A DNA stretch of 64,000 nt from Leptolyngbya sp. BL0902 (GTDB taxonomy: Bacteria; Cyanobacteriota; Cyanobacteriia; Phormidesmidales; Phormidesmidaceae). The stretch's first letter is position 1. Each line of letters opens with the position of its first letter. Location of the stretch: assembly GCF_016403105.1 (NCBI RefSeq), contig NZ_CP046155.1, positions 1,240,001 through 1,304,000 of the forward strand, read 5' to 3'. Position numbers and translations under genes: made by a program. The notes under the pieces are model-generated. The model saw nothing but the letters and a program-made list of their open reading frames with translations, had not been told where the DNA came from and made no database searches. This document shows, one piece after another, positions 6,241 through 22,904 of this stretch.

Positions 6241-6969
6241 ATGAATCAACGTATCGGGCAACTCGTTATGATCACCCTCGCCGCTGTGGCAGGGCTAGGA
6301 GTCATAGCCTTACCCCAGAGTATTGCCCCCCAGGCAATGGCTAGGCACCCCAATGGCTCAGCGAACGCCTCAACCCCATCTCCGGTCTATCGGCTCCAGG
6401 CTCCAACGGTGCTTCAAGGGGTCGTCGCTCCCCTCAACTCCCTGCGCCTGATGAAGCGAGCCCTGGCCAATGCCGCCGACTCCGACAGTCGCATGAGCCT
6501 GCCGCTACTAGCCATTCTCAATGAACCCCTGAAAACCACCGGACTTGGCCCCATCCAAATTGGCATGACCCTAGCCGATCTGGAGGAAGCAGGGCTGACC
6601 CCCATCGCCATTGAGGGCAGCGGTCAGGGAGTCTGTCAGTACTATCGCATTAAGGGCAATAGCGAGCCGATTGGGATCATGGCCATCGATGATCGGATTC
6701 TACGGATTGATGTGTGGCCCGGTAGCCTCATTGAGACCCGCAGCGGCGCAAAAATTGGCTCAACGGAGGCCGATTTAGTTCGCATGTATAGAGGCCAACT
6801 AGAGGCTACAGCCAACCCCGTCACCCTTGGTAAGACCATCGTGTTTACTCCCCGAACCCCCGGCGAAGACCTGTTCCGCCTCGTCTTTGAAACCGATGAT
6901 CGGGGCCGGGTCGTGCAGTATCGAGCGGGCCAGTTTCCATCCGTTAGTTGGCCAGGAGGATGCCTCTAG
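6241..6969 (+). CDS. Secreted or periplasmic protein of unknown function
   Basis: The frame is open from a TTG at 6190, but the ATG at 6241 gives a proper signal peptide (LVMITLAAVAGLGVIALP followed by an AMA cleavage site). The mature part of about 200 residues contains GLGPIQIGMTLADLEEAG, two widely spaced cysteines and a closing SWPGGC. The GxGxIxIGMTL pattern resembles small secreted bacterial proteins of undefined role. It is monocistronic between a divergent SLH gene and a convergent PsiE-like gene. I cannot assign a function. Confidence 0.75.
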   Translation: MNQRIGQLVMITLAAVAGLGVIALPQSIAPQAMARHPNGSANASTPSPVYRLQAPTVLQGVVAPLNSLRLMKRALANAADSDSRMSLPLLAILNEPLKTTGLGPIQIGMTLADLEEAGLTPIAIEGSGQGVCQYYRIKGNSEPIGIMAIDDRILRIDVWPGSLIETRSGAKIGSTEADLVRMYRGQLEATANPVTLGKTIVFTPRTPGEDLFRLVFETDDRGRVVQYRAGQFPSVSWPGGCL

Positions 6970-7031
6970 ACGACGGTGGCTCCCCTCTCAGTCTGTGGGT
7001 CAGCCCGATGGTATTTCAACCCATAATATCC

Positions 7032-7490
7032 TTAGCTCGAATTGCGGTTGGTGTGGCGCACAATCCAATAGCTGATGGCCAGGGAAAAAATGGCAATAGC
7101 CAGCCCAATCAACGTGGCACCTGACACTTTATTGAGGTCAAGAATAATAATTTTGCGCCCAACGGCGGTAAGGGCTGTGGCGATCACCAATTCCACCTGC
7201 ACCACATGGCTGCGAATGTAGCCTGTGATGTTTTCTAAGATTTCTAGGGCAATTAAAATACTGAGAAAGAAGCCAAAAATATCAATCACAGGCTGTCCTA
7301 GAAAGGCTCCAGGGCCAGTGGTAAGAATAGAACGGCCAATAACAATTCCCAAATCAATCACCATGGCAATGATCACAACGATCATGCCCAAGGACAATAT
7401 TTTGGAAATGGTGCCCTCAAACTGATGCAAACGCTTGAGAAAAATATCGTTTTTCAACTGTGCGAGAAGCTGTCTAGCCGAACGTGCCAT
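7032..7490 (-). CDS. PsiE-like membrane protein (phosphate-starvation-inducible E family)
   Basis: The 152-residue protein has four predicted membrane helices: around residues 30-50, a segment with GFFLSILIALEILENI, one with VELVIATALTAVGRKIIIL, and a C-terminal helix (LIGLAIAIFSLAISYWIV). This arrangement and the ALEILENI...HVVQVELVI core match the PsiE family. In E. coli that gene responds to phosphate starvation and cAMP-CRP, and its function is unknown. The gene lies directly downstream of narB on the same strand with a 26-base gap, so it may be co-transcribed with nitrate reductase. No Pho box was noticed. Confidence 0.8.
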   Translation of the reverse strand: MARSARQLLAQLKNDIFLKRLHQFEGTISKILSLGMIVVIIAMVIDLGIVIGRSILTTGPGAFLGQPVIDIFGFFLSILIALEILENITGYIRSHVVQVELVIATALTAVGRKIIILDLNKVSGATLIGLAIAIFSLAISYWIVRHTNRNSS

Positions 7491-16919: not shown

Positions 16920-17981
16920 CTAGCCGATGATTTCAGGAGCCTCAGCCGTAGCCAGGTCGAGGGGGAAGTTGTGAGCATTGCGCTCGTGCATCACTTCCAT
17001 ACCCAGGTTGGCACGGTTGATTACGTCAGCCCAGGTGCCAATCACGCGACCCTGAGAGTCGAGGATGGACTGGTTGAAGTTGAACCCGTTCAGGTTGAAC
17101 GCCATGGTGCTGATGCCCAGTGCGGTGAACCAGATGCCGATCACAGGCCATGCACCCAGGAAGAAGTGCAGGCTGCGGCTGTTGTTGAAGGAAGCGTATT
17201 GGAAGATCAGACGACCGAAGTAGCCGTGAGCCGCCACAATGTTGTAGGTCTCTTCTTCTTGGCCGAACTTGTAGCCGTAGTTTTGGGACTCGGTCTCGGT
17301 GGTCTCACGCACCAGAGAAGACGTCACCAGAGAGCCGTGCATGGCGGAGAACAGAGACCCACCGAACACAGCGGCCACACCCATCATGTGGAAGGGGTGC
17401 ATCAGAATGTTGTGCTCAGCTTGGAACACCAACATGAAGTTGAAGGTACCGGAAATCCCCAGGGGCATCCCGTCAGAGAAGGAGCCTTGACCGATGGGGT
17501 AGATCAGGAACACAGCGGTGGCAGCGGCCACAGGGGCAGAGTAAGCCACGCAGATCCAGGGGCGCATACCGAGGCGGTAGCTCAGTTCCCACTCACGACC
17601 CATGTAGCAGAAGACGCCGATGAGGAAGTGGAAAATCACCAACTGGTAGGGGCCACCGTTGTACAGCCACTCATCCAGGGAAGCGGCTTCCCAGATGGGG
17701 TAGAAGTGCAGACCGATAGCGTTGGAGGAAGGAACAACAGCACCAGAGATGATGTTGTTACCGTACATCAGGGAGCCAGCAACAGGCTCACGGATGCCGT
17801 CGATGTCCACGGGGGGAGCAGCGACAAAGGCGATTACGAAACAGGCGGTGGCAGCCAGGAGAGTGGGGATCATCAGCACGCCGAACCAGCCAATGTACAG
17901 GCGGTTTTCGGTGCTCGTTACCCACTGACAGAACTGCTCCCAGAGGGAGGCAGATTGTTGCCGTTGAAGGGTCGTGGTCAT
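16920..17981 (-). CDS. psbA: Photosystem II reaction centre protein D1, high-light form
   Basis: D1 binds P680, pheophytin and the QB quinone and supplies most ligands of the oxygen-evolving cluster. From the ATG at 17981 the protein is 353 residues and starts [17 protein letters not shown]. Expected residues are all in place: Y161 (TyrZ), D170, E189, H190, H198, H332, E333, D342 and the cleavage site after A344. Residue 130 is Glu, which marks the high-light D1:2 type rather than the Gln-130 D1:1 type. The frame is open to 18047, but that extension is the leader region. No other psbA copy is in the window. Confidence 0.98.
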
Positions 17982-18180: not shown

Positions 18181-18786
18181 CTACGGACTAACCGCCTCCT
18201 GAAGCGCCTGCTGCACATCGGGGATAAACACCGCATACATGCCGCGTAGGTCGCCTTCTTTGAAGTCGTAGGCGAGGTCTTGGGGGTAGTTGGCTTTCAC
18301 AAAGTCGGGTCGAGAACTTTTCATCCCGTGGCAGGCTAGACAACTGGCTTCCACGTTAATGCGCCGATAGTAGCGGGTGCCGGGTTGGCCGTTTAGCGTC
18401 TCTTTTTCCCAAAGGCCCATCAGTTCAGGGTTTTGCTCAAACTTAGCCAGGGCCATGGTGGCGTGGGGCGTGTCGAGGGCGTGGTCGGGGTTGCGGTATT
18501 TCTTGGCGAGCTGCTTCACCTGCCAGCCGTTTTCTTTGCTCAGTTCCATCGCCTTCATGCCCACGGGTTTGCAGACCTGCTTCATGGTGTCGGCGGTGGG
18601 GGGCTCCGGTGCATCTTTTAGGTAGGAGGCCAACCCACTGCGGAGGGCATCCAAATTTTCCACCGCTTCGACGGCCTTAGCCAATTCCGCTGGGTTCACC
18701 TCCGCCTGGGCCAGGGCAGGTTGCCAGCCCCACACCAGCGTCATCAAACACAGTCCTAGGCCAAAACGCAAAAACCATTTCATCAC
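18181..18786 (-). CDS. Tll0287-like c-type heme protein (DUF3365)
   Basis: The 201-residue protein has a signal peptide ending in ALAQA and one covalent heme site CLACH (C149, C152, H153). The domain order matches DUF3365/Tll0287, a PAS-like heme fold proposed to sense redox or small ligands in the thylakoid lumen or periplasm. It lies directly upstream of psbA on the same strand, but psbA has its own promoter in the gap, so shared transcription is uncertain. Substrate and partner are not known. Confidence 0.88.
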   Translation of the reverse strand: MMKWFLRFGLGLCLMTLVWGWQPALAQAEVNPAELAKAVEAVENLDALRSGLASYLKDAPEPPTADTMKQVCKPVGMKAMELSKENGWQVKQLAKKYRNPDHALDTPHATMALAKFEQNPELMGLWEKETLNGQPGTRYYRRINVEASCLACHGMKSSRPDFVKANYPQDLAYDFKEGDLRGMYAVFIPDVQQALQEAVSP

Positions 18787-18933: not shown

Positions 18934-19014
18934 GGGAGATCCCCCTGAATTCCCCTTAGTAAGGGGACTTGGAAGCCGATTCCCCCCTTACTAAGGGGGG
19001 CTAGGGGGGATCCC
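18934..19014. repeat. Dispersed palindromic repeat (CCCCTTA/TAAGGGG type)
   Basis: Two adjacent palindromes, CCCCTTA-G-TAAGGGG (18952-18966) and a longer 9-1-9 version (18982-19000), are framed by GGGAGATCCCCC on the left and GGGGGGATCCC on the right. Compound repeats of this kind are scattered through many filamentous cyanobacterial genomes. This copy lies in the gap downstream of sqr and could act as its terminator. Confidence 0.75.
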
Positions 19015-19017
19015 AGC

Positions 19018-20340
19018 CTAAGCAGGTTGGGAAGGCACATGGCTGTCCACCATCTGGGGTGCCGAGGGCCGATAGTCGCTCAGCAGTTTGAGGCCAAACA
19101 GCGTCCGCAGCCCCAGCCGTTCGTACCAGGGCATCCCCACCCCAAAGCGCATTTTGGCCATGAAGTATTCCTCAAAGGCCGCTTTTACCCACACCACCCA
19201 GGGGCCACGGGCGGCGTAGGACTGCTTGCGTTTGCCCGTGGCCGGGTCGGGAATGACTGGCGCGGCGATGTAGGCGATGCCCGTTTCGCCAAATTCGGCA
19301 AAGCAGAGGGCATCGAGGGTGGGCACTTGCAGCGGGCCGTTGATGGCACCTAGATCCACGGCGATGTTGTGGGCGGCGGCGGTGGCCATGGCTTCGGCCA
19401 TTTGTCCGCTCTTGGGTAGGCCGATGGGTACTTTGGTTTGGTCGGGCTGGGTCAGTTTGATGCTCACCCCGGCGGCGTAGATTTCAGGAAATTCGGGGTG
19501 GCGCTGGGTGGGCAGCACGGGGATGAACCCTTTTTCGTCGGCCAAACCGGGGACTTCACGGATGAACGGAGCGCCCCGGAAAGACGGCAGAATCATCGAA
19601 TAGCGGAAGGGAACTTGGCGACCATCGCTGAGGATGACGGCATCGGGGCTGACCTGGGTAATGGCGGCATTGTCGATGAACTCTACCCCTCGTTTTTCCA
19701 TCAAATCAGCGGTGAGTTCGCGGGCATTTTTTACCCCAGAAACGCCCAAATGCCCCACGTAGGGTTCTGGCGTGATGTAGGTAATGGGTACCTGGTCGCG
19801 AATGCCCAGGCGGCGCAGTTCCCGTTCGGCCATCAAAATAAATTCGTAGGCGGGGCCAAAGCAGCCCGCACCGGGGGCCGCCCCCACCACCATTGGCCCA
19901 GGATTTTTCACAAACTCGCGCCATGTTTCCCGTGCTTCTAGGGCGTGGTCGGGGGTGCAAACGGATTGCGTATAGCCGCCGTGGGGGCCAAGGCCGGGGA
20001 TCAGGTCGAAGGCGAGGGAGGCTCCGGTGGCAATGGTCAGATAGTCGTAGTCCAGAGTATCGCCGCTGGCTAGGGTGATCTTCCGCTGCACAGGATCCAG
20101 CCCCGTTACCCGATCCTGCACCAAGTTGAGCCTGTGGCGTTGGGCCAGGGGAGCCAGATCCAACTGAACGTGCTTCATGGACTTGAGATCCAGCGCCACT
20201 TGGATGAGTCCTGGAATAAAGGTGAACTTGTCATGCTCAGAAATCAGCGTGACCTGGTGCTCGGCGGGGAGAAAGTGCCGTAGTTCGTAGGCGGCGGGCA
20301 ACCCACCCAAACCAGCCCCAATCACAACAACGTTAGCCAT
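19018..20340 (-). CDS. sqr: Sulfide:quinone oxidoreductase
   Basis: Sqr is a monotopic membrane flavoprotein that oxidises sulfide to polysulfide or sulfur and reduces quinone, which can feed electrons into photosynthetic or respiratory chains or remove toxic sulfide. The ATG at 20340 gives a 440-residue protein with an N-terminal FAD motif (VVVIGAGLGGLPAAYEL). Three cysteines, C128 (SVCTPDHA), C160 (GAGCFGPAYEF) and C346 (LDALCFAEFGE), match the redox cysteines of characterised Sqrs. The frame continues upstream to 20412, but AAAGGA before 20340 supports the shorter start. It is divergent from the DUF302-Rieske-transporter genes. Confidence 0.9.
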   Translation of the reverse strand: MANVVVIGAGLGGLPAAYELRHFLPAEHQVTLISEHDKFTFIPGLIQVALDLKSMKHVQLDLAPLAQRHRLNLVQDRVTGLDPVQRKITLASGDTLDYDYLTIATGASLAFDLIPGLGPHGGYTQSVCTPDHALEARETWREFVKNPGPMVVGAAPGAGCFGPAYEFILMAERELRRLGIRDQVPITYITPEPYVGHLGVSGVKNARELTADLMEKRGVEFIDNAAITQVSPDAVILSDGRQVPFRYSMILPSFRGAPFIREVPGLADEKGFIPVLPTQRHPEFPEIYAAGVSIKLTQPDQTKVPIGLPKSGQMAEAMATAAAHNIAVDLGAINGPLQVPTLDALCFAEFGETGIAYIAAPVIPDPATGKRKQSYAARGPWVVWVKAAFEEYFMAKMRFGVGMPWYERLGLRTLFGLKLLSDYRPSAPQMVDSHVPSQPA

Positions 20341-20518
20341 AGAAAATCCTTTATCACTAAAGAGTGATGATTTAGACAGAGGAGATAATTTCAGAGGAGG
20401 AATGGGGCACATACCGCATTCTCAAGACCCTGAGGCTATCGGAGGCCACAGACCAGGACGACCCCTGAAAACATCTATCTTGATTATTTGACTATTTTAC
20501 CATTAAGTTATATATTTA

Positions 20519-20531
20519 GAGAATGATTCTC
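20519..20531. promoter_or_regulatory. Palindromic operator candidate between sqr and the DUF302 gene
   Basis: GAGAAT-G-ATTCTC is a perfect 6-1-6 palindrome in the AT-rich divergent promoter region, 47 bases before the DUF302 start. It resembles half of a Fur-type box, but a sulfide- or persulfide-responsive repressor is equally possible. A second stem, TCACT/AGTGA (20354-20367), lies just ahead of the sqr ribosome-binding site. Confidence 0.5.
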
Positions 20532-20577
20532 ATCGTATTCCTTTCGCTTCATTAACTTAGGTAAGGATTTTTAACCC

Positions 20578-20985
20578 ATGTATCACTTCAGTAAAGTCGT
20601 GGCCGCCTCCTTTGATGACGCCATTGCCCTAGTCACCGAAGCGCTACGCCAGCAAGGGCTCGGCATCCTCACCGAGATCGACGTGCAAGCCGCCTTCAAG
20701 AAAAAGCTGGATGTAGACTTCCGCCGCTACAAAATTCTCGGAGCCTGCCATCCCCAGGTGGCCTACGCCATGCTGCAAACCGACGACAAAGCGGGCGTCC
20801 TCTATCCCTGCAACGTCGTCGTGCAAGAGCACACCGATGGCCGAGTAGAGGTCTCCGCCGTGGATCCCCTGGCCATGTTTTTGATGATCCACAGCCCCCA
20901 GGCCAAGGAAATCGCCCTCGATGCCAGCCAAAAAATGCAGGCCGTCATGGCCCAACTGCCCGAAGCCGTTTTAGTCGCCGCCTAG
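20578..20985 (+). CDS. DUF302 domain protein
   Basis: The 135-residue cytoplasmic protein is a single DUF302 domain. It shows the FDDAIALVTEALRQQGLGILTEIDV start, a central RRYKILGACHPQVAYAML and the closing VSAVDPLAMF. DUF302 proteins are small, often found beside sulfur-oxidation or thiol-handling genes, and their biochemical role is undefined; the conserved CHP could bind a metal or a persulfide. It is the first gene of a plus-strand set divergent from sqr. Confidence 0.9.
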   Translation: MYHFSKVVAASFDDAIALVTEALRQQGLGILTEIDVQAAFKKKLDVDFRRYKILGACHPQVAYAMLQTDDKAGVLYPCNVVVQEHTDGRVEVSAVDPLAMFLMIHSPQAKEIALDASQKMQAVMAQLPEAVLVAA

Positions 20986-20996
20986 AGCGTTGGTTT

Positions 20997-21216
20997 AGAA
21001 GCCCGGTTTCTGCATCAGGTGGCATACCAGATTGGGTCTCACACCAAATCCGAGTTTCACAACCCCAAGTCCCAAAGCGTAGGACTGTAGGGTGCATTAG
21101 CGGCGACAACCCTACCTGGCAACACCCGAATCGCTTTGGTTCGCCGCAATGCACCACAGGAGAATCAGGTGTAATCAAGTGGGATTGAGGATTATCCAGC
21201 CAGAAACCGGGCTTCT
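20997..21216. repeat. Nested inverted-repeat element (MITE-like), about 220 bp
   Basis: The outer ends are a perfect 16-bp inverted repeat, AGAAGCCCGGTTTCTG (20997-21012) and its complement at 21201-21216. Inside lies a second pair, GGTGCATTAGCGGCG (21091-21105) and CGCCGCAATGCACC (21142-21155), which differ by one deleted base. No open frame fits inside. Both arm types look like dispersed cyanobacterial repeats. The element separates the DUF302 gene from the Rieske gene and may affect their joint transcription. Confidence 0.75.
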
Positions 21217-21284
21217 CCTCCCACGACACCGCACCCCCTCTCACCTCAAACACCCCTCACCCGAATCAATACCGATCAACAACG

Positions 21285-21821
21285 ATGGACAACACCTTTC
21301 CCCTCACCGATCCCCCTTCTTTATCTCGGCGGCAACTGCTGAACTTCCTAACCGGAGCCACCGTTGCTGCCACCGTAGGTTCGGCCCTGTACCCCGCCGC
21401 CAAGTTTATGGTGCCCCCCGCCGCCGCCGCTGCTGGGGGTGGATTGCTGGCCAAAGATAAACTGGGCAACCCCATCCCCGCCAGCCAAGTTTTGGCCGAA
21501 CCTCCCGGCACCCGTGCCCTAGTGGCTGGATTGGCCGGAGAACCCACCTACCTCACCGTTACCGAAGACGGCTCCATCGACGCCATGGGCCTGGTGGACA
21601 ACTGTACCCACTTGGGCTGCACCTTTCCCTGGAACCCGCTGGATCAGCAGTTTCAGTGCCCTTGTCATGGTTCCCGCTATAGCCCCGACGGTGCCGTCGT
21701 GCGTGGCCCTGCGGATCGCCCCCTCAAACTCACCCGCGTTGAGGTGCGCGACAACGCCATCTGGCTCTCCCCCTGGACAGAAACCGACCCCCGCACGGGA
21801 GAAAAACCCTGGTGGGTGTAG
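21285..21821 (+). CDS. petC: Rieske iron-sulfur protein, PetC type
   Basis: The 178-residue protein has the PetC plan: an N-terminal SRRQLLNF followed by a single membrane helix (FLTGATVAATVGSALYPAAK), a glycine-rich hinge, and a soluble domain with the 2Fe-2S ligands. The ligands are C107 and H109 (CTHLGC) and C125 and H128 (CPCHGS), with C112 and C127 able to form the usual disulfide. PetC carries electrons from plastoquinol to cytochrome f in the b6f complex. There is no petA beside it, and it sits in the Sqr cluster, so it may be an extra or alternative Rieske protein rather than the main one. Confidence 0.93.
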   Translation: MDNTFPLTDPPSLSRRQLLNFLTGATVAATVGSALYPAAKFMVPPAAAAAGGGLLAKDKLGNPIPASQVLAEPPGTRALVAGLAGEPTYLTVTEDGSIDAMGLVDNCTHLGCTFPWNPLDQQFQCPCHGSRYSPDGAVVRGPADRPLKLTRVEVRDNAIWLSPWTETDPRTGEKPWWV

Positions 21822-21854
21822 GGTTTCGTCATTGATTTTCAGCAACACATTAAC

Positions 21855-21872
21855 AAGGGGCTTAAGCCCCTT
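21855..21872. repeat. 18-bp perfect palindrome after the Rieske gene
   Basis: AAGGGGCTTAAGCCCCTT is fully self-complementary and lies about 35 bases after the Rieske stop. It may be a terminator-like hairpin or a dispersed repeat. There is no strong T run. Confidence 0.6.
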
Positions 21873-21917
21873 ACCAGAAATTCATATCCACTGATTACCC
21901 AAAGGTAGGCGCTTACT

Positions 21918-22904
21918 GTGTGGAAATTTCTAGGATTTATTCAAAAAAACCTGGTTTGGTCAGTCCCGATTTGTATGATCGCGGGGATTTTGGTCGGGGC
22001 CGTCATTAACCCAGCCCCGCTCAAGGCGTTGATTATTCCCCTCACCTTTTTAATGGTTTACCCGATGATGGTGAACCTGCAAATTCAAGAGGTTCTCTCC
22101 GGCGGCGACACCAAAGTTCAAGTAGTCACGCAGTTAATTAACTTTGCCATCGTGCCCTTTTTCGCTTTTGGGATGGGGCAATTATTCTTTGCCGATCAGC
22201 CCCTTGTGGCACTGGGGTTGCTACTCGCCTCCCTCCTACCCACCAGCGGCATGACGATTTCCTGGACGGGCTTTGCCAAAGGCAACGTCAGCGCGGCCAT
22301 TAAGATGACCGTGGTGGGGCTGATCCTCGGTTCCGTTGCCACCCCCTTCTATGCCAAGGGTTTGATGGGAGCGGTGGTCGAAATTCCTCTCACAGACATT
22401 TTTCGGCAGATTATTATTATTGTGTTTCTGCCCATGCTGCTGGGTTTAGCCACCCGCACGGTGCTGATTCGTACCCTGGGGGCCGACAAGTATCACAAAA
22501 ATCTAAAGCACAAATTTCCAGCTTTTTCGACGTTGGGTGTCCTCGGTGTGGTCTTCGTGGCCATGGCCCTCAAGGCGAAGGATATTATCAGCAATCCGAT
22601 GATTTTGCTGTCCTTTTTGGTACCCCTGGCAATTCTGTATGCCGGGAACTTTCTCCTCAGCACCATTATCGGCAAGCTGTTCTTTAACCGAGGCGACGCC
22701 ATCGCCCTAGTCTACGGCACAGTAATGCGAAATCTCTCCATTGCCCTTGCCATTGCGATGACCAGCTTTGGTCGAGAACAGGGTTCAGAAATTGCCCTAA
22801 TTATCGCCATGGCCTATATTATTCAAGTGCAAGCAGCGGCCTGGTATGTGCGCTTCACCGACCGCATTTTTGGGCCTATTCCTCAACCACTAACCCAGCC
22901 TTGA
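21918..22904 (+). CDS. ACR3/SBF (bile acid:sodium symporter) superfamily transporter
   Basis: The 328-residue inner-membrane protein has about ten predicted helices in the arsenical-resistance/SBF fold. At the position where ACR3 arsenite exporters carry an essential cysteine in their fourth helix, this protein reads LLPTSGMTISWTGFAKGN. Its only cysteine is near residue 19. It is therefore unlikely to be an arsenite exporter even though automated names may say arsenic resistance. It closes the cluster that begins with the DUF302 and Rieske genes, and a sulfur-compound substrate is a reasonable guess. The start is the GTG at 21918. Confidence 0.8.
   Translation: MWKFLGFIQKNLVWSVPICMIAGILVGAVINPAPLKALIIPLTFLMVYPMMVNLQIQEVLSGGDTKVQVVTQLINFAIVPFFAFGMGQLFFADQPLVALGLLLASLLPTSGMTISWTGFAKGNVSAAIKMTVVGLILGSVATPFYAKGLMGAVVEIPLTDIFRQIIIIVFLPMLLGLATRTVLIRTLGADKYHKNLKHKFPAFSTLGVLGVVFVAMALKAKDIISNPMILLSFLVPLAILYAGNFLLSTIIGKLFFNRGDAIALVYGTVMRNLSIALAIAMTSFGREQGSEIALIIAMAYIIQVQAAAWYVRFTDRIFGPIPQPLTQP

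Follow-up and report, generated by a model that had tools for sequence, protein, structure and literature searches.

Does a gene for sulfide:quinone oxidoreductase (SQR) that is read away from a Rieske protein gene form with it one sulfide-fed unit, and which regulator would switch such a unit on? This question is raised by a locus in the 4.7-Mb genome of the cyanobacterium Leptolyngbya sp. BL0902, within the 64-kb stretch of DNA analysed here (the window). An earlier note had described four open reading frames (SQR, DUF302, PetC and SBF) on the two sides of a compact divergent promoter, and both points hold, as the frames have the positions and strands given in Table 1 and the sqr–DUF302 gap is 237 bp. 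Its numbering of the SQR cysteines as C128, C160 and C346 is correct when counted from the likely ATG at 20340, while a translation starting one codon later places them at 127, 159 and 345. Two genes co-directional with sqr, for a Tll0287-like c-haem protein and for D1 (psbA), were overlooked in that note.

Table 1. Features of the locus, in positions of the window
Feature	Position	Strand	Remarks
psbA, ordinary water-oxidising D1	16920..17981	-	D170 E189 H332 E333 H337 D342 A344 present; E130 type
Tll0287-like c-type haem protein (CLACH)	18181..18786	-	downstream of sqr, same strand; recurrent island member
sqr, sulfide:quinone oxidoreductase, type I-like	19018..20340	-	440 aa; Cys 128/160/346
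Divergent intergenic region	20341..20577		237 bp
Sigma-70-like promoter TTGACT-N17-TATATT (10/12)	20488..20516	+	overlaps operator-like site
Operator-like conserved site ATTTTACCATTAAGTTATATAT	20494..20515	+	22 bp; matrix score 16.8 bits
DUF302 protein	20578..20985	+	Cys 57 and Cys 78 invariant across 17 island copies
MITE-like insertion	20988..21225		16-bp perfect inverted ends; missing from closest relative
Second PetC isoform, PetC2-like Rieske subunit of cytochrome b6f	21285..21821	+	transmembrane anchor and CTHLGC/CPCHGS ligands retained
SBF-fold transporter, ACR3-related, under ACR3 cut-off	21918..22904	+	single Cys, position 19

Genes of the island and their conserved linkage

SQR has the Pyr_redox_2 fold, and its best solved relative is the SQR of Acidithiobacillus ferrooxidans (E 2.9e-99, phmmer), in which Cys-containing segments align with the segments that hold all three cysteines. 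With three redox cysteines and an FAD fold it is a type I-like enzyme. PDB E-values are about 1e-99 for A. ferrooxidans SQR and 1e-88 for the other best relative, the SQR of 3hyv, whereas the mitochondrial enzyme (type II) gives only about 1e-8. The DUF302 family match has an E-value of 5.5e-25, and the transporter matches PF01758 at 8.6e-27. PetC scores 287.7 bits against model NF045928 (cut-off 250), its anchor PF25471 lies above the cut-off, and Cys 107, 112, 125 and 127 fall within CTHLGC and CPCHGS. At this locus, Phormidium sp. FACHB-1136 and Nodosilinea sp. BSH.14 come closest among named relatives, with a transporter 95% identical.

The MITE-like element of about 220 bp has terminal inverted repeats, a perfect match over 16 bp, at 20997-21012 and 21201-21216. 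It occupies a DUF302–PetC gap that measures about 10 bp in the closest relative, and it may split the operon between these two genes in the window.

PetC had been called a lone Rieske protein. This is true locally; however, the genome also has a canonical petC directly before petA, at C1:120449, which rules out the island PetC as the sole Rieske subunit. The two proteins share 50% identity. A tree of 57 rows splits PetC proteins of the island type from those of the petCA type, each in its own clade, at 100/100 support. At thirteen positions of the alignment, 90% of rows or more follow the distinction between the groups; two of these positions come after the first loop that binds the cluster, where TF stands against VV. 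Both types, one each, co-occur in many genomes. The island protein is a second isoform, PetC2-like, the label resting on its clade apart from the petCA-encoded PetC. An electron path from SQR through plastoquinone to the Rieske protein is plausible, given that this PetC isoform is particular to the island setting.

The proposal of the earlier note depended on these families being neighbours in other genomes, and they are. Among 291 Cyanobacteriia genomes, an SBF orthologue (about 66% identity or more) occurs in 29, SQR at E 1e-60 or better in 84, and PetC of the island type in 54. Linkage, defined from coordinates as a distance within 15 kb, was found for SBF and SQR in 22 of the 26 genomes that have both, for PetC2 and SQR in 29/43, and for SBF and PetC2 in 13/16. 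These values are far above chance: for the canonical petCA Rieske gene, which served as the control, such linkage to SQR was found in 0 of 25 genomes. Contig breaks could only lower the SBF and PetC2 counts with SQR, never raise them, and kinship among the genomes inflates any simple p-value. The linked pairs recur over many family labels with varying internal order and orientation, and many genomes have a partial island only. Related islands repeatedly add DUF2892/YgaP-TM, rhodanese, Tll0287-like, DUF3122 and ArsR genes, with an ArsA ATPase and YeeE-like membrane proteins as occasional members.

Several relatives also carry a divergent psbA inside the island. The encoded D1 keeps Tyr161 and His190 and has lost the Mn-cluster ligands at 170 (D170E/T/A), 333 (E333A/S/G) and 342 (D342 replaced), and mostly also E189. 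By this loss of Mn4CaO5 ligands, it fits what is termed rogue D1. Rogue D1 and SQR are within 15 kb in 14 of the 22 genomes with both, the ligands having been read directly for most of these, not all. One relative's island holds a D1 with every Mn ligand retained and with A80/L158 changes, which we take to be the pattern of a microaerobic D1. Rogue D1 is absent from the window genome, where the window psbA and all five genomic copies are ordinary and keep all ligands. The window psbA was also considered as a sulfide-specific D1, a reading that is not supported, given its complete set of Mn ligands and the closest relative, in which psbA is not beside the cluster.

A common operator-like site and a candidate ArsR regulator

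The list of the earlier note omitted a 22-bp operator-like site at 20494-20515, which lies within the sigma-70-like promoter of DUF302–PetC–SBF. Of 28 non-redundant divergent sqr regions, 20 contain its 8-mer AGTTATAT, whereas no more than 8 did so in any of 100 shuffles, and the 22-bp matrix has the consensus AWACTACTAAWTAGTTATATAG. In leave-one-out scoring, the sqr divergent region is the top match of the matrix in 22 of 25 loci. With the window locus kept out of training, the window site scores 16.8 bits, the shuffle null having a maximum of 19.7, reached once; this site is the only match of at least 11 bits in the window. A further 20 loci, unused in training, were picked solely for SQR–PetC2 or SQR–rogue D1 linkage, and in 20/20 the top match lies upstream of an island gene, an alternative psbA or an ArsR gene. 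Two of these score weakly, at 11.6 and 13.9 (null 95th percentile 11.4). Across loci, the site precedes sqr, petC2 and alternative psbA as well as ArsR genes. Its right half looks like a -10 box, so its conservation may be due in part to the promoter. Two other forms were discarded: the palindrome GAGAATGATTCTC (about 20517-20529), which the window shares with the closest relative only, and ATAACT-N4-AGTTAT, a simpler form that few loci match perfectly and whose place was taken by the 22-bp matrix.

The matrix scan of this genome covered the 64-kb window, and the whole genome was searched with a degenerate core pattern. The core has one exact match in 4.7 Mb, in the DUF302 promoter, and the best-scoring copy with one mismatch (13.2 bits) lies upstream of an ArsR-family gene at C1:2244395, minus strand, unlinked to the cluster. 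The encoded protein, a candidate repressor, has several cysteines and weak similarity to the structures of SqrR and BigR. Four relatives (G257, G275, G281 and G196) likewise have the site upstream of their ArsR gene. Autoregulated repressors of the ArsR type typically show this arrangement, and the protein is a putative binder of the site.

The common site supports a predicted co-regulation of both divergent arms. The idea of one sulfide-fed unit is supported in part, by conserved linkage and a site that fits co-regulation, with sulfide as a candidate signal.

A proposed unit for sulfide use and the alternatives to it

The reading put forward here, to which a probability of roughly two in three is assigned, is that the island would be a sulfide-use and low-oxygen photosynthesis unit under an ArsR-family (SqrR-like) repressor, acting via SQR and a PetC2-type cytochrome b6f. 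For the regulator, the signal, the electron route and the substrates we infer the following. The repressor encoded at C1:2244395 most likely binds 20494-20515 and blocks the DUF302–PetC2–SBF promoter, and it probably blocks sqr too. Sulfide or polysulfide, or anoxia through the same regulator, would relieve the repression. SQR would then oxidise sulfide and reduce plastoquinone, and cytochrome b6f carrying PetC2 would oxidise plastoquinol and pass electrons on to PSI. DUF302, with its two invariant cysteines, and the SBF transporter may handle sulfane sulfur or a sulfur-anion product. Relatives have further genes, for a rhodanese, a membrane protein of the YgaP type and a D1 presumably unable to hold the Mn cluster; as long as sulfide supplies the electrons, such a D1 would halt the release of oxygen. 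In Synechococcus PCC 7002, the accessible part of one study reports that psbA and petC transcripts (petC isoform unspecified) rise and sqr transcripts fall with polysulfide (PMC12466478); because sqr fell there, these data support the sulfide reading in part only.

The signal may not be sulfide, because the psbA1–petC clusters of Acaryochloris and Synechocystis answer to low oxygen (PMC5295598). A low-oxygen regulon, in which anoxia would be the signal, sqr would be one of several low-oxygen genes, and SQR and PetC2 need not share one electron path, is unlikely, and still appears a serious rival, since related clusters are induced under microoxic conditions, namely the psbA1–rhodanese–petC–DUF2892 cluster of A. 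marina and slr1181–slr1185 of Synechocystis (PMC5295598). NrdG-like radical SAM and other anaerobic-type genes that recur adjoining the islands point in the same direction. However, linkage to SQR is very strong, and the associated regulator is of the ArsR type with Cys residues, as are SqrR and BigR; both argue against this rival.

Detoxification only, with SQR removing sulfide, the SBF transporter exporting arsenite or a sulfur anion, and PetC2 as a passenger, is improbable. An ArsA-type ATPase in some islands and the ArsR regulators fit it, as does Synechocystis suoRSCT, which also answers to arsenite according to the accessible part of a source citing Nagy 2014 (PMC5061849). The transporter itself has an ACR3-like match (TIGR00832), but its 92.2 bits are far under the cut-off of 282.8. 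ACR3 arsenite efflux proteins have a catalytic Cys within a conserved motif of the fourth transmembrane helix, and the window protein has PTSGM at that motif and its sole Cys at 19. With this score and a motif without Cys, arsenite efflux is not favoured. Moreover, arsC and arsH were not noticed beside SBF, and the linkage of PetC2 is too strong for a passenger. Beyond cyanobacteria, SBF homologues occur in anaerobes, many of them of sulfate-reducer groups, and in Chloroflexales; there, 11 loci have a CoA-disulfide-reductase/rhodanese fusion beside the transporter gene, and about 7 of 55 have DUF302 beside it, in some cases without SQR. Such DUF302–SBF pairs without SQR suggest that both act in sulfur or redox processes in their own right, and the neighbours hint at sulfane-sulfur chemistry that does not require SQR.

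Chance or lineage-inherited gene order without a functional tie, which some linkages inside one family of non-independent genomes would allow, is hardly credible, being already contradicted by the linkage counts and the 20 unused loci, by pairs that recur in many families with differing order and orientation, and by their one common DNA site.

Relation to known systems and biological meaning

Parts of the island are already published: the sqr–petC2 adjacency (PMC11304991), the psbA1–rhodanese–petC–DUF2892 cluster (PMC5295598) and sqr–arsR operons (PMC5061849). According to the accessible part of the first source, petC2 flanks type I sqr in Thermostichales MAGs, and a role in hypoxic electron transport was proposed (PMC11304991). 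The window resembles these MAGs in having sqr adjoining the gene of a second Rieske isoform. It differs from them, as far as that part of the source extends, by DUF302, SBF and the common operator-like site, and its relatives by a rogue D1 inside the island, a protein which the paper handles separately from sqr–petC2. Acaryochloris AM1_0448-0451 and Synechocystis slr1181-slr1185 are low-oxygen clusters (PMC5295598). In islands of the relatives, as in these clusters, psbA1 and rhodanese genes stand with that of a PetC isoform, and DUF2892 is shared with Acaryochloris; sqr, DUF302 and SBF are not described there, whereas the window has no rhodanese, DUF2892 or alternative D1.

Synechocystis suoRSCT and the Geitlerinema sqr–arsR operons also tie a type I sqr to an ArsR-type regulator and a transporter (PMC5061849, citing Nagy 2014). 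In the accessible part of that source, the transporter is a chromate-type importer or ArsB and a Rieske isoform is not described; in the window genome, by contrast, the likely ArsR gene is unlinked. The candidate regulator resembles the sulfide-sensing repressors SqrR and BigR in its ArsR fold with cysteines and its presumed control of sqr, and differs in the operator-like site, here the candidate AWACTACTAAWTAGTTATATAG derived from sequence. No prior report of the combined island, the operator-like site or the rogue-D1 link was found among open-licence full texts.

A broader proposal is tentative and held at less than even odds: in many cyanobacteria one sulfide-sensing ArsR regulon would turn on SQR and bring a dedicated Rieske protein into b6f and a non-water-splitting D1 into PSII, the window genome having a reduced version with an ordinary D1. 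For rogue D1 and the extra Rieske isoforms of cyanobacteria, genes near sqr under one site yield a testable idea on function, that sulfide, via one ArsR repressor, reshapes PSII and b6f for anoxygenic photosynthesis. If this is true, rogue D1 gains a purpose, the silencing of oxygen release during sulfide-fed photosynthesis. The island looks like a switchable kit for sulfide life, and it bears on how cyanobacteria may have alternated between oxygen production and sulfide use in Proterozoic seas.

Repeats and palindrome in the window

A perfect palindrome adjoins the 22-bp operator-like site at the DUF302 promoter. The palindrome is common to the window and its closest relative only, and its sequence is reminiscent of Fur-family boxes. 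Where the window carries a MITE-like element, Phormidium sp. FACHB-1136 has a DUF302-PetC gap of about 10 bp. The repeats between the Tll0287-like gene and sqr look like an intergenic repeat family.

Non-coding features of the window
Feature	Position	Location	Sequence
MITE-like element	20988-21225	between DUF302 and PetC	16-bp perfect terminal inverted repeats AGAAGCCCGGTTTCTG
Perfect palindrome	20517-20529	adjoining operator-like site	GAGAATGATTCTC
Repeats	18940-19017	between Tll0287-like gene and sqr	CCCCTTAGTAAGGGG-kind

D1 variants at locus L051

In L051, a psbA gene (6371-7468) adjoins the SBF transporter gene and encodes a D1 with A80 and L158 that keeps every Mn ligand, a microaerobic-type pattern; the same genome also has a rogue D1 at a separate place (L206).

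Further genes at related loci

In L034, L036, L039, L098, L108 and L120, PetC2 is followed at short distance by an ArsA-type ATPase gene. In cyanobacterial L045, L046, L048, L049 and L039, a gene beside or close to SBF encodes a large protein that combines a cyclic-nucleotide-binding domain with an AAA domain of the sigma-54-activator type. The islands L112, L113, L165 and L104 encode, close to SBF, membrane proteins that resemble YeeE/YedE at half the size and are likely to transport sulfur.
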